The position numbers and the translations under genes were made by a program. From positions 2,170,001 through 2,234,000 of the forward strand of contig NZ_JNIF01000003.1 in NCBI RefSeq assembly GCF_000702445.1: a DNA stretch of 64,000 nt, in the 5' to 3' direction. Below, one piece after another: positions 6,531 to 60,198 of this stretch; the stretch's first letter is position 1; each line of letters starts with the position of its first letter. Under the pieces are notes generated by a model. That model saw nothing but the letters and a program-made list of their open reading frames with translations. It ran no database searches and was not told the origin of the DNA. This stretch comes from Bryobacter aggregatus MPL3 (GTDB lineage Bacteria; Acidobacteriota; Terriglobia; Bryobacterales; Bryobacteraceae).

Positions 6531-7814
6531 TTGAGCAAGCGCAGCAAATTTCTTTGGCTTCTTCTCTTCCTCTGCCCCATTGTGTGGCAGCTTTGGGTGC
6601 CTCCCTATACAGGGCTGGCCGACAACGGGGACTTTGCCAAGGTGGTGGGTCGATATTCTCTCGCTCCGACCGCACCCGGGCCGCAGCAGACGTTTTACTA
6701 CTTCAATCGCATCTGGGAAGTTTCGCCGGCTGCGTTCTGGCTGAGTCCTTATTGGGGTGTTGAGGTCTGGCTGACGCGGTTTGCGATCTGGATCGGCGGT
6801 ACGGCGCCGTTTGACATGCGTTGGCTGGGGCTGTTGCATACCGCGATCTTTTCCGTGGCTGCGTGGTTCTTTCTGAGCCAGCGCGCCATTCCAAATCTGT
6901 TTGCGATTGTCGCGTTCACGGATGCGGCCTATGTCACTTACTTCCAGAGTTTCTATTTCGATGCGGCGAGCCTGATCTTTCTGTTGGTGTTCTTTGCCAG
7001 TTGGATTGCCGGGCAACCGGTGGCGCTCGCTTTGGGGGCAGTGGGCTTCTCCTTATCGAAAGGGCCGCACGCGCCTGTTGCCGTTCTGCTGGGGCTCATT
7101 CTGCTTGCGCAGGGGCGCCGGAGTTTTCTGCCTGCCGCGCTCGCTCTTCTGGTGGGCGGTGGCTATCTGCTGAGCCAGACTCGCGATGAATACAAGGCGA
7201 CCGCCTATTACAATCTGGCGTTCTTCAAGCTTGGCGTTGTCGATCCGTCCTCGCTGGAGGATTTGAAGGTTGCCCCCGCCAACAGGCGATGGATCGGCAC
7301 CCATGCCTTTATGCCCGAGAGCCCGGCGCAGAGTGAGGTCTGGTTGCGCAGCTTTTTTCCGGCGGGTGGCTATGGCAATGCCGCCAAGTACTATCTGACG
7401 CATCCATGGACGGCGGTGAAGATTCTGTATGCCGATCTGGCGACCGAGGCACCGCAGATTCGGGCCCAGAATCTGGGGAACTACGAGCCTTCTACGGGCA
7501 AAGCTTATGGCTCCAGGTCCAAGAGCTTCGGCTGGTATAGCGAAGCGAAGAGCTGGTTTTTTACCGCGGCGCCTTGGCATCTTTTTCTACTGGTTCCAAC
7601 TGCTGCCTGGCTTGTCTGGCGCGTGGCGGCTTTGCGCTGGCCGCTCGCCGGAGTGCTGCTGGTGGGGAGTTATGAATTTGCAGTCGCCTCTCTGGCCGAT
7701 GCCTGCGAAACCTACCGGCATCTCCTGCTGTTTCATGTCTCCTACGACCTTCTGCTCTTTCTTGCCTTGACGGCATGGCTTGTTACCCAATCGAAACGGC
7801 CTTCATCGCTATGA
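6531..7814 (+). CDS. Polytopic membrane protein, possible GT-C type glycosyltransferase
   Basis: A 427-residue protein with roughly nine to eleven hydrophobic segments. After the first helix comes the acidic, polar stretch GLADNGDFAKV in the first external loop. An acidic first loop of this sort is where GT-C glycosyltransferases place their catalytic residues, but I cannot assign a family. The C-terminal half has a large soluble loop (about 200-330). The best start is the TTG at 6531. It heads a tight cluster with an LPG-synthase-like protein (6-base gap) and a PIG-L deacetylase (6-base gap), which together suggest lipid-linked glycan or glycolipid work. This role is inference from context. 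Confidence 0.6.
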   Translation: MSKRSKFLWLLLFLCPIVWQLWVPPYTGLADNGDFAKVVGRYSLAPTAPGPQQTFYYFNRIWEVSPAAFWLSPYWGVEVWLTRFAIWIGGTAPFDMRWLGLLHTAIFSVAAWFFLSQRAIPNLFAIVAFTDAAYVTYFQSFYFDAASLIFLLVFFASWIAGQPVALALGAVGFSLSKGPHAPVAVLLGLILLAQGRRSFLPAALALLVGGGYLLSQTRDEYKATAYYNLAFFKLGVVDPSSLEDLKVAPANRRWIGTHAFMPESPAQSEVWLRSFFPAGGYGNAAKYYLTHPWTAVKILYADLATEAPQIRAQNLGNYEPSTGKAYGSRSKSFGWYSEAKSWFFTAAPWHLFLLVPTAAWLVWRVAALRWPLAGVLLVGSYEFAVASLADACETYRHLLLFHVSYDLLLFLALTAWLVTQSKRPSSL

Positions 7815-50924: not shown

Positions 50925-53900
50925 CTAGATCTTGAAGCTGGAATTCTCCATTCTGCTGCTCCTCATGCGAACACCGATTACGCAAGCATAGGCTGCAATC
51001 ATTGCTAACCAGGCCCAGGGTGGGATGGAGTCTGCGATCCACTGGACGCGCATTCTCCGAACCCAGGTAATCGCGTGGGACTGTAAGGATCGAAGTTTGG
51101 AGAGTGGGGTCGGTGTTGGCTTGGGAGGCGCGGGCTCAGCCGACTGGACGGTCTTACCCAGGGTCTTGCTCAGCGACTCTTCCATGTTCTGCAACTCCTC
51201 CCTCTTTCCACTCTGGCGAAGCTGCTGCGTGACATGCGAGCGAAGCGCAAGGTTGGCGCAGACCTGCGCATTGCAGGCTGCACCGATTTCCGCAATGCTG
51301 CGCGCATACTCCCCAGCGAGCATCTGACGGTCGGCGGTGCTGAAGTGATGGATGCCTTGCCGGTCCACTTCGAGCAGGCGGGCCAGGATTGTCTGCTTGG
51401 CATGCGGATTCTGGTCGCGGAAGAATTTCTGCAACCCCAGCTTGTAGCGATCTTTCACAAACACATCGAGCACAGTGTTCCAGGTTCGTTCGTCGAGATG
51501 TTCTGGCGCAGTCTTCTGAAATCCGTACAAGTGCTCGATCTCTTTTGAGATCTGGCGTGCCCCGGCGTAGCCTGATTCCTTCATCTCTCCAATCCACTTC
51601 GGATTGAATTGCCGGGAGTGGAGCTCGACGGCCAGCCACTCCCGTAACGCGGTCATGTGCGTGGTGCCGGCCTGGCGCAGATTGTGAAGATAGACATCGG
51701 GCGCCTGCTTCCGAAACTGCTGGATGGCGGTCCGAAGGCCACCGACGTACTGATAGCTGTCGTCGTTATCCAAGGAGCCATAGAGATTAGAAGATCGTGA
51801 AAACTGCACCGAATCAATGGAGCTGAGATTCGCCTGGAGTGCTTTGAGGCCTTCCACTCCCCATTGCTCTCCCGAGAATCCAAACCCCATATTCGCGGCA
51901 TAGAGAGCGGCTACATTCGAGGCCCGGTCGGCTCCTCCTGACTTCTCGATCAGGTGTTGTACGCCAACACCATAGGCTCCCGGTTTGGCGCTGAAGATCC
52001 GCAGCTTCGATAGTTTTGCCGCGTCTTCCGCTCCGACTCCTTGTGCCTGCATCTGGGCTGCTAGTTTGCGATCTTGATCCGCAATGGTCTGATCGGCGGC
52101 GCTGGCTGCGAGACGAATTGCCTTGTCGAGCAGATGCAGTTTGTCGGCAAAGCCATCCCGATAGTTTCCTGAAACGGTGAAGACAACATCGACACGATCC
52201 CGCCCGAGGCTTTCCCGTGGGATCAGTTTCAGATCTTCCACCACGCCTCGCTGATTCCAAACGGGCTGCACTCCAAGCAGTGCGAGCGCCATGCATTCCA
52301 TGGCCCCCTGATGCCGTTCCGTCTCGCCATACCAGAGCACCAGTGAGACTCGCTTGGGCTCTTGATGATGTGTTTCCTGATAGCGCTGGAGGAATTCCTT
52401 TGCCATCTGCTGGCCGACAACCCAGGCGGCCTCGGTGGGAATGCGCGCTGCATCGACTGCATGTAGATTCTGTCCGACCGGGAGTGATTCCGGTTTGCGG
52501 AGCGGGTCGCCGAGCAGGTTCGATGGCACATGACGGCCGTCGAGGGCATTGGCCAGGCCTTCTATCTCGGCTGGCCCGCTGCTGCGCAGTGCCGCAATCC
52601 AGGCGGGCAGTGCTTTGGCTGCCTTGGCCAGCAGGGCTGTGAGTTCCGGGCTCAATTCGCCAGCGCGTGGTTCACGGCCTGCGAGGAGTTCCTCCGCCCA
52701 GATTGGAATCGATGGCTCGACGGTATCGTGCGAGTCTTTGGGGAACGAAGAGAAAAGATAAGCACTCACGGCCTCTTTCAATCGCTCCTCTGTCGGGGAA
52801 CTGCCAAAGACCGGGAGCCCTGCCGGTAGCGGGGCGTCTTCAATCTCATGGAGAAAACGGTGCAAGGCAGGGGACATCTTGGTCCAACTTCCGGTGGTGT
52901 CGAGTTGGAGTTGGCGATCCAGTCCCAGGCGTTTCACTTCTTCCCTGGCTACCTTTTCGTATTCGCGAGCGAGATTGGGCGCCAGAGAATCGCCGCGATC
53001 GACGAGTTCGTGAAAGGCGAGGTGCAGTTTCTCGAATTCGGCACGGCCACCGGTGCGCCAGATCATCGGTGTGAGGTGGCTGATCAGGGTGGCAAAGCCC
53101 CGGCGTTTGGCCTGAATCGCTTCGCCGCCACCATCCATGACATAGACATTGAAGTTTGGCAGATCGCCGAGAACCAGGGCGGGTGCGTCATCTGGGGCTA
53201 GCGCCACTTGCTTGCCGGGAAGCCATTCGAGGGTGCCGTGCCTACCCAGGTGGATGACGGAGTCCGCTGCCCAAACATGACGGAGCCAGAGATAGAAAGC
53301 GATGTATTGGTGGGGCGGGGGAGTGACAGTGACGTGTCCGGGGTCGCTCGCTTGATCGGAAGTGGTACGAAGGGGTTGGGGGGCGAGCAACAGATTGCCT
53401 TGCTCGATCGCTGGTAGAAGGAAGCAGCGGCTGTGATGGCAATCAGTTGTCATCAACCGGGAAACACCAGGTGCGCCCCAGGTTGCTTCCACTTGATCGC
53501 GAAAGGACTGCGGCAGCAGATCATAGTGCTTGCGATACTCTTCCAGTGGCCAGAGGACCGGGTCTCCGGAGTGACCGAGCCGTTCCTTTTCACCCTCCGC
53601 CCAAAGTTCCAGATTGCGGCCATTGTTTTCAATCAGCCGCCGGATGACGGTTTCGTCCGGCAAGGGATGCGATACCTGATAGCCGCGTTTTTCAAGGCCG
53701 CTCAGAATGTTGGCGATGCTGGGGAAAACCTGCAGATAGCTGGCGCCGACATTGCCTTTGCCAGCGGGATTATTGTAGTAAATCACGGCGACACGCTTGC
53801 TGGAATTTGGCTTTGTTTGGAGCGCAATCCAACGGGAAACACGGTCGAGGAGGCTGTCGAGGCCAGCATGGAACGGAAGCGTCATCTTCGCGCCATTGGC

Positions 53901-54836
53901 AGAGCTTTCTGTAGTGGCCACCAGAGTGGGGGCCACGAGTCCGGAGCGTTCCGGGAAGCTCAAATGAGGGGCAATCCGATCGGGCGCCAAGCCTTTGGGA
54001 CTCGACTGCCACTGCTCCAGAGAATCTCGTGTCACCAGTCCATTGAAGACCGGCACCTTCCAGGAGGTGTAGATGTCCGCATCTTTCACAGAGGACAGTG
54101 TGGCATTGAGCGTAATGACTGCTGCAGGCTGAATGTTCCCTTGGTGTTGCAGGAGGGGTGTGAATCGATCTGTCGGATAGCCAAAAACAGGGATGGGCAG
54201 ATAGCCGCGTGCTTCCAGTTTCCGGACACCGGCATCGACTACGGCAAGATCGCGGCCTCGAAGCCAGCTACTGAAGAAGGCCAGCGCGACGGCAGGGGGC
54301 GCGGCTTGCCGTCCTGCGCGTTGGAGCCACCAGTTGCGATAGGCCTCGAAGCTTGAAAATAGTTCCTCTGCATCGGGATGATAGATGCCGGATTGTGGGC
54401 CTTTGAGAGGCGCCTCGGGACTGAGTTTCCAGTTGGGCCTGACGAGATCACAAAGATAGGCCACCAGACGCACGCCATTTTCAACACCCCCCTCATCGAG
54501 ATAAGCAGAGGCTTTGACGCTGGCCTGGGGATCAATCGTCCTGCGCCATAGCGGCGCGGCAAACTCCTGCGGCTGCGCCAGTGACTTGTCAGGCAAGTAG
54601 GAAAGGGAGGCTTGTAACTCCTCTGGGGTCGGGTAGTAGGCGAAGACAATATCAACCGGAACGGGAGCTGTTGGCGCGGTGGTGAGTAACTGAATCTCAC
54701 GGCCGGGATAACGTTTGGCGAATTCTGTCGTAATACGCGGCCATAATTGTTGCGGCCCACCGACAATCGCAAGACGCGGCGCCGGTTGGGCGAAAATGAC
54801 ACACGTATAGAAAAAAACGGAGAGTAATATCTTCAC
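50925..54836 (-). CDS. Exported, membrane-anchored CobN/HmuS-family chelatase-like protein
   Basis: A 1303-residue protein of the CobN/BchH (class I chelatase large subunit) family. Family blocks are VIYYNNPAGKGNVGASYL (351-368), PPPHQYIAFYLWLRHVW (507-522), the core IHLGRHGTLEWLPGK (528-542) and the late AKPGAYGVGVQHL. Unlike cytoplasmic CobN it opens with a signal peptide (MKILLSVFFYTCVIFAQPAP) and ends with a proline-rich hinge and one membrane helix (about 1272-1289, PPWAWLAMIAAYACVIGV) followed by basic residues. The bulk should therefore be periplasmic. This fits HmuS-type proteins, which are linked to heme dechelation, more than B12 synthesis. No CobS/CobT, ChlI/ChlD or cob genes lie nearby. 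It starts at the GTG at 54836 behind GGGAAGGG, under a cobalamin riboswitch. It could act on corrinoids, heme or cobalt; the riboswitch favours corrinoid or cobalt. Confidence 0.88.
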   Translation of the reverse strand: MKILLSVFFYTCVIFAQPAPRLAIVGGPQQLWPRITTEFAKRYPGREIQLLTTAPTAPVPVDIVFAYYPTPEELQASLSYLPDKSLAQPQEFAAPLWRRTIDPQASVKASAYLDEGGVENGVRLVAYLCDLVRPNWKLSPEAPLKGPQSGIYHPDAEELFSSFEAYRNWWLQRAGRQAAPPAVALAFFSSWLRGRDLAVVDAGVRKLEARGYLPIPVFGYPTDRFTPLLQHQGNIQPAAVITLNATLSSVKDADIYTSWKVPVFNGLVTRDSLEQWQSSPKGLAPDRIAPHLSFPERSGLVAPTLVATTESSANGAKMTLPFHAGLDSLLDRVSRWIALQTKPNSSKRVAVIYYNNPAGKGNVGASYLQVFPSIANILSGLEKRGYQVSHPLPDETVIRRLIENNGRNLELWAEGEKERLGHSGDPVLWPLEEYRKHYDLLPQSFRDQVEATWGAPGVSRLMTTDCHHSRCFLLPAIEQGNLLLAPQPLRTTSDQASDPGHVTVTPPPHQYIAFYLWLRHVWAADSVIHLGRHGTLEWLPGKQVALAPDDAPALVLGDLPNFNVYVMDGGGEAIQAKRRGFATLISHLTPMIWRTGGRAEFEKLHLAFHELVDRGDSLAPNLAREYEKVAREEVKRLGLDRQLQLDTTGSWTKMSPALHRFLHEIEDAPLPAGLPVFGSSPTEERLKEAVSAYLFSSFPKDSHDTVEPSIPIWAEELLAGREPRAGELSPELTALLAKAAKALPAWIAALRSSGPAEIEGLANALDGRHVPSNLLGDPLRKPESLPVGQNLHAVDAARIPTEAAWVVGQQMAKEFLQRYQETHHQEPKRVSLVLWYGETERHQGAMECMALALLGVQPVWNQRGVVEDLKLIPRESLGRDRVDVVFTVSGNYRDGFADKLHLLDKAIRLAASAADQTIADQDRKLAAQMQAQGVGAEDAAKLSKLRIFSAKPGAYGVGVQHLIEKSGGADRASNVAALYAANMGFGFSGEQWGVEGLKALQANLSSIDSVQFSRSSNLYGSLDNDDSYQYVGGLRTAIQQFRKQAPDVYLHNLRQAGTTHMTALREWLAVELHSRQFNPKWIGEMKESGYAGARQISKEIEHLYGFQKTAPEHLDERTWNTVLDVFVKDRYKLGLQKFFRDQNPHAKQTILARLLEVDRQGIHHFSTADRQMLAGEYARSIAEIGAACNAQVCANLALRSHVTQQLRQSGKREELQNMEESLSKTLGKTVQSAEPAPPKPTPTPLSKLRSLQSHAITWVRRMRVQWIADSIPPWAWLAMIAAYACVIGVRMRSSRMENSSFKI

Positions 54837-54865
54837 GGAGCCCTTCCCTCGAAGTCCATGGGGTA

Positions 54866-54882
54866 GCCGTCACAAGGACGGC
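54866..54882 (-). other. Hairpin between riboswitch aptamer and start codon
   Basis: GCCGTC and GACGGC form a perfect six-pair stem with a five-base loop, 30 bases upstream of the CobN-like GTG. No T-run follows, so it is probably part of a translational (RBS-access) switching region rather than a terminator. Inferred. Confidence 0.4.
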
Positions 54883-54887
54883 GACTC

Positions 54888-55045
54888 TGGCAGGTCTTCG
54901 GGCTTACAGGCTGGATACAAACCTACTAGCCAAGCCTTCCCAAGCTGTGAGCTCAGTGGCGGATGATTGGCGTTCGTTCCTGCTTACCGCTGCGGGGCAG
55001 CTCCGGAATTGCACCGGATTCCCTTTTCAGCCAGACACCGCGACG
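54888..55045 (-). ncRNA. Cobalamin (B12) riboswitch
   Basis: Read on the minus strand, the region carries the full set of conserved cobalamin-aptamer blocks in order: GGGAATCCGGTGCAATTCCGG, shortened here to GGGAATCCGGTGCAATTCC, then GCTGCCCCGCAGCGGTAAGC, GCCACTG, CTTGGGAAGG and the closing B12-box part GCCCGAAGACCTGCC. These are the signatures of the AdoCbl-type class. The start codon of the exported CobN-like gene is about 50 bases downstream, so the gene should be turned off when cobalamin is plentiful. The outer limits are approximate. Confidence 0.93.
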
Positions 55046-55346
55046 AATCGCCGAGTCCAGCACCAAGAGACAATCCGAGGGTATCACGGATGCCTGTTGG
55101 TTTCGCCGCGGGAAGCGACTGAAGGAGGATGTGAGTGAAGAACTCGTTCGTTGTGCGAAGGAACGGCAACTCCGGGTCGCGGCAGCTTTGCGCGGGCCGT
55201 TTTTCCAGATGGTCTGCTGGCTGCTTCCGGTGTGCCTGTTCAGATCGGCGTTTTGCCGATGTTCCTATTGATGGCGTGAGAAGACAAGCTCTGAGTTCGC
55301 CGCGCTTCTGCCTTCAATCGGGAACAGCGCACCCAATCTGCATTCG
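55046..55346. other. Gap upstream of the riboswitch
   Basis: About 300 bases between the riboswitch and the stop of the VWFA-related gene. It should hold the minus-strand promoter of the riboswitch transcript, but I see no convincing -35/-10 pair. The one structure is a hairpin, ATCGGC (55244-55249) with GCCGAT (55255-55260), which has no T-run. Confidence 0.45.
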
Positions 55347-57108: not shown

Positions 57109-57657
57109 TTAAAGACCGAGGTATTCAATGTGGGCATAAGTGCCCAGCCGCGAGTTGTATCCGAGATACCAGCCTACGTGGACCGGATCTTCATAAATCA
57201 CAATCTGGTCGCCGGCCCAGTTCCAGTCATCGACGATGCTGTAGTCAAAAGGTGCGACGGCCCAGTAGAAGTTATTGAACCAGAAGCGGTTCCGGTTGCC
57301 ACCAGTCAGCACAAACACATGTTGTGGCCCAAAACCACCAGAAAAGCGGCCATGAGCCCAGGGGTGATCCAAATGGTAGTGGGGATCATTCGCGCCGCTG
57401 CGATGCCCTACCCATTCGTCATTTTTTGCATGGACATGCGGGAGATTCGGGTGCCCCTTCTGATCGACGGCAATCCTGTTCTCTTTCGTATCGCGGGACT
57501 CGTTCTCACGCATCGGAGCCCGATTCGCAACCGGGCCATGGGCAGGAATATGTCCCCCTCCTACCCCTCCTTCGCGCCCCCCTCCCTCGCGATGCTGGCC
57601 GATGGCTCCCACGGCGCCGATGCCGATCGCGATTGCTGTAATGAGTAATTTGTTCAT
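57109..57657 (-). CDS. Secreted His/Gly-rich protein of unknown role
   Basis: A 182-residue protein from the ATG at 57657, with GAGGAG eight bases upstream. The signal peptide is about 1-20. The next 25 residues are Gly/His-rich ([20 protein letters not shown]), followed by a segment with many His ([39 protein letters not shown]) and an aromatic-rich C-terminal part ([23 protein letters not shown]). The last part resembles the Trp/Tyr-rich domain of various small exported proteins. Metal binding by the His stretch is possible, and the neighbouring genes handle arsenic and heavy metals, but this is inference. Confidence 0.72.
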
Positions 57658-57938
57658 TTTGATACTCCTCTGCCTTTTCTTATGCAATTCGAGCCCCAAT
57701 CTTCCCTTTCAATCCGACGAAATTCTCTGTGGCTCTTCCAGAAGAGGACCGTGGTTTCCAGGTTCAAGTTGGTGCGGCGATTTGATTGCGTGGTTTTCAT
57801 GTGCAACCACTCGAAGGTCTTCTGATGGACGAATGGGGACCCCGGCTGCAGCTCGTGGAGGTGGCAAAATGTCCGGAACGCTGCTGACCGCCATTCGTCA
57901 CCCTGACCATATATCGGCATGCCTTCTCAGAAAGAAGC

Positions 57939-57973
57939 TTGCCTATTTTAATATTTCAATTATTATAGAAATA
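57939..57973 (+). promoter_or_regulatory. arsR promoter with palindromic operator
   Basis: A -35 box TTGCCT (57939-57944) and a -10 box TATTAT (57961-57966) are 16 bases apart. The inverted repeat TATTTC (57952-57957) / GAAATA (57968-57973) spans the -10 region. Transcription should begin about seven bases after the -10 box, at or next to the GTG start codon at 57974, so the mRNA is probably leaderless. The repeat is the natural binding site for the dimeric ArsR. Confidence 0.65.
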
Positions 57974-58321
57974 GTGAATCAAGAAGATGAAAACGAGCGG
58001 ACGATCCGCTTCGCCGATATGTTTGCGGCGATGGGCACGGAGTCCCGTCTCCGCATCATGCAAGTTCTTCTCTCGGCCCATCCTGCGGGAATGGTAGTTG
58101 GAGAGATTCAATCGGAACTCGGAATCTCGGCCTCAAACCTTTCCCATCATCTGGAGAAGCTGAAGAATGAGGACTTGGTGCTGGTGCAGCGGGAAGGGAC
58201 TTTTCTTCGTTACACGGCCAATACCGCTGCTCTGGAAGCGGTGTTGTCTTTCCTCTACGCAGAGTGTTGCACCCGTAACAAGGCGATCCGGCCCGAGGCG
58301 ATTGTCCCGCTCTGTAAGTAG
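57974..58321 (+). CDS. arsR: ArsR family arsenic-responsive repressor
   Basis: A 115-residue winged-helix repressor, the usual ArsR size. The HTH reads VVGEIQSELGISASNLSHHLEKLKNEDLV (key parts GEIQSELGISASNLSHHL and EKLKNEDLVLVQREG). Cys98 and Cys99 (YAECCTRN) and the late Cys114 can form the arsenite-sensing trio, as in ArsR types with a C-terminal cysteine set. I start it at the GTG at 57974, which fits both size and the promoter just upstream. The frame is open further upstream to an ATG at 57868, but the extra residues are not ArsR-like. It heads the operon arsR-arsM-acr3-arsC. Confidence 0.88.
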   Translation: MNQEDENERTIRFADMFAAMGTESRLRIMQVLLSAHPAGMVVGEIQSELGISASNLSHHLEKLKNEDLVLVQREGTFLRYTANTAALEAVLSFLYAECCTRNKAIRPEAIVPLCK

Positions 58322-58331
58322 GGAGAGCATG

Positions 58332-59135
58332 ATGAACAAGATAGACATCAAGGCAGTAGTGCAAGAGAAGTACGGCCTGGCGGCTCTTCGATCTGCCCAT
58401 GGAGCATCCTCCTGCTGCGATCCAATCACCAGCAATCTCTACGATCAGGAACAACGCCGGCAAGTGCCCGAAGCGGCGCTTCTTGCCTCGCTTGGTTGTG
58501 GCAACCCGACCGCGCTGGCAGACTTGCAGCCCGGAGAGACGGTGCTGGACCTGGGTTCGGGTGGTGGCATCGATGTGTTGCTTTCGGCCCGGCGTGTGGG
58601 GCCTACCGGAAAGGCCTATGGCCTGGATATGACAGATGAGATGCTGGCGCTGGCAAACGAGAATCAGCGGCAGGCGGGCGCGGCGAATGTGGAGTTTTTA
58701 AAAGGCGAGATCGAGTCCATTCCCCTTCCAGATCACTCCGTGGACGTGATCCTCTCGAACTGTGTGATTAACCTTAGTGCAGACAAGGACCGGGTGCTGC
58801 AAGAAGCCTTCCGGGTGCTGAAGCCTGGTGGCCGCTTTGCGGTTGCCGATGTTGTGACCCGTGGGGAGATGTTGCCTGAGATCCGGAGCAGCATGGGGCT
58901 GTGGGTGAGATGTCTTGCCGGAGCGCTGGACGAGAACGAGTATGCCGCCAAGCTGCAGGCAAGCGGTTTTGAGGAGATCCACATCGAAGCCACCCGTATC
59001 TACCGCGTAGAGGAGGCTCGTAGTTTTCTGAGTGGCCAGGGGTTGGATATTGATGCGATTGCGCTGCAGGTGGACGGAAAGTTTATGGGCGCCTTCATCC
59101 GTGCGCTCAAACCCCGTATTGTGGCGCATGATTAG
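58332..59135 (+). CDS. arsM: Arsenite S-adenosylmethionine methyltransferase
   Basis: A 267-residue SAM enzyme that methylates As(III). The SAM loop is [16 protein letters not shown], with [19 protein letters not shown] downstream. Conserved cysteines used to bind arsenite are present in SSCCDP (about 29-30), LGCGNP (about 56), LSNCVINLS and WVRCLAGAL, in the order typical of ArsM. I prefer the second of two tandem ATGs (58332), as it is better spaced from GGGAG. It is 10 bases after arsR. Its stop overlaps the ACR3 start by eight bases. Confidence 0.93.
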
Positions 59136-60198
59136 GGCAGCGCGAAAGCAGCTTGCATTCTTTGAACGCTATCTCACGCTCTGGGTTACGCTGTGCATGG
59201 CCGTGGGGCTGGCTTGCGGCAAGATGCTGCCTAGTGTTGTCCACAGTCTGCGCGGCTGGGAACTCGGGGAATCGAGCCAGATCAACCTACCCATCGCGAT
59301 TCTGATCTGGTTAATGATCACGCCGATGATGATGAAAGTCGACTTTGGCGCGGTTCGCGATGTGGGTCGCAGGCCCGCAGCTTTGGTGGTGACGCTGATC
59401 GTCAATTGGCTGGTGAAGCCATTCTCCATGGCTTTTCTCACGTGGTTCTTTTTCCGATTTGTTTTCTCTTCCTTCATTGCGCCCGCAGAAGCGGATCAGT
59501 ACATTGCGGGCTGCATCATTCTGGCGGCCGCTCCCTGTACTGCGATGGTGTTTGTGTGGAGCCATTTGACGGATGGGGATCCCGCTTACACGCTGGTTCA
59601 GGTTGCCGTCAATGACTTGTTGATGCTGGTGTTGTTTGTCCCGATTGTCCAGTATCTGGTGACCGGCGCTTCCTCGCTCACCATTCCCTTTGCCGTCCTG
59701 CTTGACTCCGTGCTGGTCTTTATCGTTATTCCCTTGGCCGCAGGCGCCGTGCTGCGACGCCTTCTGATTCGCAAGCGCGGGCGGGACTGGTTTGAAATGG
59801 AGCAACTGCCGCGTTTTGCGCCTCTGACGATGACGGCCCTGCTGGCGACCTTGGTGCTGTTGTTTGCCTTTCAGGCAGACAACATCACCGCACGGTGGTT
59901 CCACGTTCTTTTGATTGCTGTGCCGATCACCTTGCAGGTCTATCTGAACTCTTCGCTTGCCTATGGGCTGATGCGGCTGCTGCGAGTGAATTACTCTATT
60001 GCGGCGCCAGGCGCACTGATCGGCGCTAGCAACTTCTTTGAACTGGCCGTTGCAACTGCGATTGCTTTGTTCGGACCGGAGTCCGGCGCGGCGCTGGCAA
60101 CCGTGGTTGGCGTGCTGGTTGAGGTTCCGGTGATGCTCTCGGTTTGTGCCGTGTGCAATCAGACCCGTCATTGGTTTCCAACTCCACTTGAAAGGTAA
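59128..60198 (+). CDS. acr3: ACR3 family arsenite efflux permease
   Basis: A 356-residue inner-membrane arsenite exporter with about ten helices. MMKVDFGAVRDV, the key AAAPCTAMVFVWSHL stretch (catalytic Cys in the fourth helix), DPAYTLVQVAVNDLLML and APGALIGASNFFELAVATAI are typical of ACR3/ArsB-type BASS-fold transporters. The start codon overlaps the arsM stop (ATGATTAG, eight bases). arsC follows six bases downstream. The enzyme exports arsenite produced by ArsC and unmethylated As(III). Confidence 0.94.
   Translation: MIRAARKQLAFFERYLTLWVTLCMAVGLACGKMLPSVVHSLRGWELGESSQINLPIAILIWLMITPMMMKVDFGAVRDVGRRPAALVVTLIVNWLVKPFSMAFLTWFFFRFVFSSFIAPAEADQYIAGCIILAAAPCTAMVFVWSHLTDGDPAYTLVQVAVNDLLMLVLFVPIVQYLVTGASSLTIPFAVLLDSVLVFIVIPLAAGAVLRRLLIRKRGRDWFEMEQLPRFAPLTMTALLATLVLLFAFQADNITARWFHVLLIAVPITLQVYLNSSLAYGLMRLLRVNYSIAAPGALIGASNFFELAVATAIALFGPESGAALATVVGVLVEVPVMLSVCAVCNQTRHWFPTPLER

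Follow-up and report, generated by a model that had tools for sequence, protein, structure and literature searches.

A probably exported CobN-family protein behind a cobalamin riboswitch in Bryobacter aggregatus MPL3: a candidate member of a B12-salvage regulon

Cobalt insertion by the cytosolic CobN requires CobS/CobT and ATP (PMC7689651), and its exported relative HmuS is a heme dechelatase taking iron out of heme (PMC12583661, PMC13227078). HmuS is defined by His254 (within an HGR triplet), Met79 and a Met-rich insert (PMC12583661, section 23); its His538 is situated in the central cleft and its head and neck domains are distantly similar to periplasmic binding proteins (PMC12583661). The same survey (section 23) dealt with about 10,000 superfamily sequences, most of the bacterial and archaeal ones being not reliably annotatable. 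Membrane-anchored periplasmic CobN-like proteins, BtuS1 and BtuS2, and a third CobN type have been attributed to a comparative-genomics study of 2003 (PMC6460266), and an hmu-like operon of Bacteroides fragilis NCTC 9343, which we infer to be the btuS1 operon, was reported behind a cobalamin riboswitch (PMC6460266, PMC10100974). Such riboswitch-led hmu-like operons are suspected of serving cobalamin (PMC10100974). For the exported Glov_3671 from the plasmid of Trichlorobacter (Geobacter) lovleyi, an organism reported to have de novo B12 genes, the biochemical role was called unknown (PMC3403914), and in Chlorobaculum tepidum the chelatases beside a cobalamin receptor were speculated to insert cobalt into acquired cobalamin (PMC8620254). 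The subject of this work is another gene of this kind, found in a stretch of 64,000 nucleotides (nt) of Bryobacter aggregatus MPL3 (contig NZ_JNIF01000003.1, positions 2,170,001 to 2,234,000; hereafter the window), which encodes a CobN-like protein preceded by a cobalamin riboswitch. A first-pass annotation made from the sequence had presented it as the best candidate for an undescribed system. The published CobN-like genes already include exported and even riboswitch-linked ones, the riboswitch-led hmu-like operons being in print (PMC10100974), and this description is too strong. The features of the locus are as follows.

50925–54836, minus strand: gene of a probably exported CobN-family (PF02514) protein of 1303 amino acids (aa) with a GTG start at 54836, from the open reading frame (ORF) and the Pfam match; apparently a single-gene unit
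54873–55082, minus strand: aptamer of a cobalamin riboswitch (RF00174) heading the CobN-like gene; scored by cmscan at 106.9 bits (E 8.5e-26) and found again in the whole-genome search
54841–54850, minus strand: ribosome-binding-like stretch GAGGGAAGGG ahead of the GTG start, by sequence inspection
54786–54836, minus strand: signal-like sequence MKILLSVFFYTCVIFAQ, about residues 1–17, from hydropathy; a signal-like start is also present in an orthologue with 62% identity
50970–51026, minus strand: C-terminal membrane anchor IPPWAWLAMIAAYACVIGV, residues 1271–1289, followed by the positive tail RMRSSR; from hydropathy, with an equivalent in both orthologues
53238–53240, minus strand: codon of His533, counterpart of the HmuS central-cleft His538 (RHGTLEW), from alignments
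51738–51800, minus strand: branch motif SRSSNLYGSLDNDDSYQYVGG, residues 1013–1033, with Asp1026 at the HmuS His1209 position, from a 51-protein alignment

The RF00174 match covered the full model (positions 1–189 of 189) at a score far above the cut-off of 31.5 bits and encloses the complete aptamer annotated previously at 54888–55045 of the minus strand; no second Rfam match at the gathering threshold was present within the 64-kb window. The position close upstream of the gene was also recognized correctly, while the distance from the aptamer 3' end to the GTG start is 36 nt and not about 50 bases. Folding of 54806–54900 gave a structure no stabler than that of shuffled sequences (z -0.33), with no clear expression platform at the leader end. 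Judging from the RNA family, the riboswitch would permit synthesis of the CobN-like protein when cobalamin is scarce. An eight-codon ATG frame on the minus strand (54833–54859) overlaps the ribosome-binding stretch and terminates across the GTG start, which may be chance.

The match to PF02514 scored 878.9 bits against 24.5 (E 7.2e-264) and extended over residues 111–1164 and profile positions 2–1084 of 1090, while none of the nine CobN/BchH equivalog models matching the protein reached its cut-off, the best score being 743.9 versus 1248 bits. The export and anchor features were judged from hydropathy alone. The N-terminal hydrophobic stretch had a Kyte-Doolittle value of 2.52 over 12 residues, and the putative anchor 1.71 over 19 residues, compared to 0.29–1.07 at the C-terminus of four cytosolic CobN and BchH controls. 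Since the interior maximum of the protein is 1.42, hydropathy alone is not overwhelming for the anchor, which was called also because the stretch keeps its position in both orthologues. The protein is thus probably an exported, periplasm-facing member of the CobN family with a signal-like start and a C-terminal membrane anchor, and the previous assignment as a 1303-residue CobN/BchH-family protein with a signal peptide and an anchor stands. Downstream on the same strand, no Pfam-matching gene was found before a plus-strand SDR gene, with a single 124-aa ORF without Pfam match in between.

Among 257 genomes of the order, 57 had matches at E 1e-50, but orthologues with about 62% identity were present only in two of them, G168 and G094. 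A two-peptide-pattern scan of an 84,980-species collection returned two loci, apparently these same two copies; no further orthologue at this level appeared in an evenly drawn sample of the class (399 genomes, E 1e-100), and a sample of the phylum (396 genomes, E 1e-150) gave only the window gene, a paralogue from the same genome and two known relatives with 38–40% identity. The DNDD motif is identical in all three proteins. The topology is retained as well: the C-terminal anchor is kept in both orthologues and the signal-like start in that of G168, which supplies the only complete N-terminus, the G094 copy being cut by a contig end. Neither loss of the signal or anchor among the orthologues nor a CobS/CobT chelatase pair fused or adjacent in relatives, two findings that the first-pass annotation had named as speaking against its proposal, was encountered.

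The orthologue in G168 is the last gene of a 13-gene one-strand operon. Its first gene, cobU, is located 81 nt behind a cobalamin riboswitch of 125.9 bits, and the gene products come in the order CobU, TonB receptor, BtuF-type substrate-binding protein, AAA_33 kinase, adenosyltransferase, nitroreductase (BluB-like), CbiP, CbiB, aminotransferase, CobT, CobS, CobC and the CobN-like protein with 62% identity. Five successive 4-bp overlaps connect the genes from the aminotransferase through the start of the CobN-like gene, when the latter is placed at the methionine preceding the signal-like stretch. The CobN-like protein is therefore located behind a cobalamin riboswitch in both assessable genomes, those of the window and G168, in two different arrangements, and for this lineage the link to corrinoids is firm on two genomes. 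The G168 operon backs the B12-repressed salvage role suggested earlier. The locus ties one exported branch of the family to B12 salvage through two riboswitch-controlled arrangements of the same orthologue.

The genome containing the window (5.75 Mb, four contigs, 98.2% complete) has four cobalamin riboswitches according to a whole-genome search, one of them being that of the window. The second heads a set of genes for a TonB receptor, an adenosyltransferase, CbiZ, CbiP, CbiB, an aminotransferase and a BtuF-type protein. The previous statement that all other cob genes are missing consequently holds for the neighborhood and fails for the genome. The chelatase CobT and CbiC/CobH were absent from all three orthologue-carrying genomes (those of the window, G168 and G094), as was any CobS above the cut-off, with one weak 22-bit match in G094, in agreement with the earlier remark on the missing CobS/CobT partners. 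Tetrapyrrole methylases numbered 1–3 in each of the 11 branch-carrier genomes tested, with 2 in the window genome. From gene content, the carriers of the orthologue probably cannot make the corrin ring and look like corrinoid-salvaging auxotrophs; the ring pathway may be missing from the whole group in any case, the absence being then a condition and not a correlation.

Two further riboswitches of this genome lead other genes. That at G000:C3:1373497–1373694 (L007:4811–8628) stands ahead of genes for a TonB receptor and a PepSY_TM protein; such pairs are usual in siderophore reduction, and here the pair could serve corrinoid uptake and reduction. The other, at G000:C3:1135528–1135731 (L006:5642–9221), precedes the genes of NrdA-NrdB, a ribonucleotide reductase of class I, as is common for the B12-independent isozyme.

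The chances are about even, in our estimate, that the window protein, a member of the class-I-chelatase family, faces the periplasm from an anchor in the inner membrane, belongs to the B12-salvage regulon and alters the metal state of corrins. In favor of this reading are the riboswitch directly upstream, the salvage operon of G168, the surroundings of the relatives in G047, G048, G291, Trichlorobacter and Cupriavidus described below, the missing CbiC with the few tetrapyrrole methylases, and the absence of riboswitches around the 12 HmuS-type loci of the order. Its substrate is rather probably a corrinoid, and catalysis would be expected rather than mere binding. Corrinoids would enter through the BtuB-type TonB receptors, the central cleft of the CobN body would bind the corrin ring and change its metal state, and the ring would then be handed over to BtuF, the adenosyltransferase, CbiP, CbiB and CobU/S/T. 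As for the direction, our tentative proposal, which may well prove wrong, is that cobalt is inserted into corrins that lack a metal or exchanged for a wrong one. The salvage enzymes present act on the product of the cytosolic CobN. The insertion or exchange is preferred because these enzymes start exactly at that product and because no apparent corrin synthesis could use free cobalt; it is also favored by the CobN-like Asp1026. A repair of corrins would be useful, since corrins without a metal bind Ni or Cu, and metal analogues have been studied as potential antivitamins B12 (PMC7693184, PMC12174906, PMC7756841).

For the comparison within the family, 51 CobN-family proteins were aligned and their residue classes counted from HmuS-numbered columns. 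HGR at 254–256 together with His1209 was found in 15 proteins (three from Bacteroidota hmu operons and 12 from the order of the window organism), while three cytosolic CobN had Asp at the 1209 position and His at the Trp1202 position, and a single BchH had His1209 without HGR. The remaining 32, including the window protein, its orthologues and the paralogue from the same genome, lacked HGR; at the 1209 position they had Asp in 29 cases and Glu in three, and in place of Trp1202 they had Tyr in 31 and Ile in one, usually within the motif SR[ST][ST]NLYGxxDN[DE][DE]; the form of this motif in the exported branch of the window protein is SRSSNLYGxLDNDD. This residue fingerprint separates the exported branch from both HmuS and CobN. 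In a 49-row tree, from which the G094 fragment and L055 (one in-frame stop) were omitted, three groups were recovered: CobN/BchH together with the Marinobacter protein, the HGR proteins (support 99) and this branch with 29 rows (93), of which 25 form a core around the window protein (100). A more careful tree of 25 of the 51 rows recovered the core again (100/100), as well as the group of HGR proteins (100/99), left Trichlorobacter and Runella unresolved, and placed the window protein and its G168 orthologue in a deep lineage of their own (100/100); the placement of the long Marinobacter, Pseudoalteromonas and Comamonad rows is unsure. By alignment and phylogeny, the window protein belongs to a separate exported branch that is neither HmuS nor the cytosolic CobN.

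The connection to HmuS and heme that had been considered in the first-pass annotation was not supported. Both cleft histidines are present in the window protein as His501 and His533, corresponding to the conserved His506 and His538 of HmuS, but the HGR254 columns read Ala-Thr-Leu and His1209 is missing, Asp1026 at this position agreeing with CobN and differing from HmuS. The segment corresponding to the Met-rich insert consists of 103 residues without a single Met, compared to 9 Met in 172 residues, 32 in 277 and 11 in 361 in three hmu-operon proteins. The Met79 column contains Pro in the window protein and Met in some rows of the branch, in a poorly aligned region. The HGTLEWLPGK region, in which a test for a metal site had been proposed previously, is of little help because its His-Gly core is shared by CobN, HmuS and ChlH. 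In the 12 proteins of the order that have HGR and His1209, the Met-rich insert is missing as well, as are Met79, Gln1198 and Trp1202, and these proteins group with the Bacteroidota hmu proteins in the trees. Three assignments were rejected or set aside: a heme dechelatase of the HmuS type, for lack of HGR254, His1209 and the Met-rich insert and because the protein falls outside the clade of hmu proteins; a CobNST subunit, because of the missing chelatase CobT, over-cut-off CobS and CbiC and the insufficient equivalog score; and BchH, because the equivalog cut-off was not reached and the tree placement is elsewhere.

Compared to the described systems, the window protein shares with HmuS of Bacteroides thetaiotaomicron (PDB 9d26) the CobN-like body with the cleft histidines, and with the hmu proteins of B. 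finegoldii, Prevotella and Aureibacter, from which the topology was taken, the signal-like start and the C-terminal anchor; it differs from HmuS in the residues just named and in having a cobalamin riboswitch. In contrast to the hmuYRSTUV operon, no HmuY, ExbB or DUF2149 stands alongside: no match to these was found by BLAST in the window, and DUF2149 is absent from the genome. BtuS1 of B. fragilis, compared by its published description, is likewise an exported CobN-like protein, while the window gene stands alone, unlike the operonic hmu-like arrangement of that organism. Glov_3671 has in common the export, the DNDD motif and the cobalamin riboswitches, but it is only 33% identical, adjoins DUF2162-ExbB-DUF2149 and has an unresolved place in the tree. 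The cytosolic CobN of CobNST (PDB 7c6o, 9uk9) has a homologous body, the HGxLEWLPGK region and Asp at the HmuS His1209 position; the window protein differs by its export-type ends and anchor and by Ser-Ser-Tyr in place of the CobN Asp-Asn-His, and its genome differs from the CobNST hosts in lacking the chelatase CobT and an over-cut-off CobS. Among the literature matches listed, which largely do not cover subscription journals and were available in part, no description was recognized of the DNDD fingerprint, of the orthologue in a salvage operon or of CbiZ beside an exported CobN.

Among 25 loci of the wider branch from the order and class, 16 had a TonB receptor of one family directly upstream; this count includes the pair of the paralogue from the window genome, L055 as two pieces and L059 with an overlong ORF start. 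Over 729 aa, the receptor of that paralogue shares 35% identity with the Trichlorobacter receptor. In Trichlorobacter the order is receptor-DUF2162-ExbB-DUF2149-CobN-like behind two cobalamin riboswitches, which stand in tandem on the plasmid (L082:7149–7340 and 7441–7615) at the head of one operon. Two genomes of the window's genus, G047 and G048, have the order ExbB-DUF2149-CobN-like-CbiZ and an opposite-strand receptor, behind the set in G047 and in front of it in G048, that scores 729 and 669 bits, respectively, against the riboswitch-led BtuB of the window genome. The CbiZ genes (L052:4898–6133 and L053:11758–12948) have a signal-like start and frames overlapping the end of the CobN-like gene; their products are apparently exported, which would be unusual for a cobinamide amidohydrolase.

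Other relatives showed more varied surroundings. G291 has a cobalamin riboswitch of 58.6 bits (L112:6720–6916) beginning about 160 nt behind the receptor/CobN-like pair and apparently leading the next TonB receptor on that strand; in G208 the strand opposite to the CobN-like gene carries a CobC-CobS-CobT-CobD-CbiB-BluB-like cluster, and G142 has a CbiZ-CbiB-adenosyltransferase cluster with a cobalamin riboswitch. CobW is next to the CobN-like gene on two Cupriavidus replicons, followed in C. campinensis by a second CobN without a signal-like start. A Marinobacter plasmid (L089:5994–10196) has the CobN-like gene in an operon of the type receptor-BtuFCD-type-cobB-cobO-cobQ-bluB; this copy has a signal-like start, no anchor and an altered cleft (HST for HGT and Ala at the His506 position). 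On a Runella plasmid (L083:1418–15676), an exported DNDD-motif CobN-like protein with a TonB receptor, ExbB and DUF2149 is encoded inside a hyp/nickel-hydrogenase cluster, which suggests a nickel role for this relative. A test for a general enrichment of B12 genes beside the branch gave no significant difference from the HmuS-type loci. Taken together, a corrinoid link for the wider branch is plausible but suggestive only.

Several results weigh against the assignment of the protein to corrin metal editing in B12 salvage. Of 25 loci of the wider branch, only 5 had one of the listed B12 genes at a distance of up to 7 kb, as did 1 of 12 HmuS-type loci (a CobW-family gene; Fisher p 0.64). None of the 23 scanned relatives from the order and class had a riboswitch ahead of the CobN-like gene; two have one nearby, on the other strand (L068) or behind the gene (L112). 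Neither was there a riboswitch near the gene in Runella, Pseudoalteromonas, Marinobacter and both Cupriavidus stretches. The riboswitch and operon linkage of the window's own lineage comes from two assessable genomes, and the Runella copy lies among nickel-hydrogenase genes. Furthermore, no ATPase partner was found for the CobN-like protein, while the cytosolic CobN needs one, and HmuS, the one characterized exported relative, runs in the direction of removal. It is also the best-scoring solved structure by whole-sequence comparison (460.7 bits), followed by CobN (372.3 bits). An AlphaFold model of residues 20–1212 from four alignment rows (mean predicted local distance difference test value 47.9, predicted template modelling score 0.32) was too poor to support structural claims.

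The top rank of HmuS and the shared topology, together with the small weight of the poorly aligned Met79 column, are what could be said for an HmuS heme dechelatase that merely happens to sit under a cobalamin riboswitch. We consider this very improbable, given the missing HGR254, His1209 and Met-rich insert, the separate core clade and the 12 other proteins of the order which do possess HGR and His1209 and group with the Bacteroidota hmu proteins. A dechelatase for corrinoids or other tetrapyrroles, which would take cobalt or nickel out of imported complexes in the periplasm and feed metal uptake, would be in line with the iron removal by HmuS (PMC12583661) and with three metal-hungry contexts: the hyp and hydrogenase genes around the Runella member, the riboswitch-led cobalt energy-coupling factor transporter on the plasmid stretch of the Trichlorobacter member and the CobW following the Cupriavidus members; it would need no ATPase. 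This is nevertheless unlikely, since no corrin synthesis is apparent in the genomes of the window and of its two orthologues, leaving the freed cobalt without evident use, and the G168 operon rebuilds cobamide instead.

Unlikely, too, is a non-catalytic relay, in which the chelatase fold would act as a membrane-anchored periplasmic trap passing corrinoids from BtuB to BtuF. The location of the orthologue in a salvage operon and the resemblance of the HmuS head and neck to periplasmic binding proteins (PMC12583661) point in this direction, as does the Marinobacter copy, a possible non-catalytic binder whose altered cleft residues imply that binding alone may suffice there; the window protein, however, retains His501 and His533, DNDD is identical in the two orthologues, and the G168 operon already encodes a BtuF-type protein. 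Corrin metal editing in B12 salvage can be extended to a third class of exported chelatase-family proteins that would edit the metal of imported corrins in the periplasm without an AAA+ motor, with ring auxotrophs rescuing corrins that carry no cobalt or a wrong metal and an adjacent exported CbiZ trimming the nucleotide loop in some genomes; some of the B12 remodelling would then take place extracytoplasmically. We regard this as a speculative proposal with the odds clearly against it; if corrins do have their metal edited outside the cytoplasm, this would be a further step in bacterial B12 sharing and repair, and the substrates named here are testable.

Apart from the CobN-like locus, the window contains genes for an ArsR-type regulator, an S-adenosylmethionine methyltransferase and an SBF-family transporter in a row (57602–60198), which we take to be probably an arsenic cluster.

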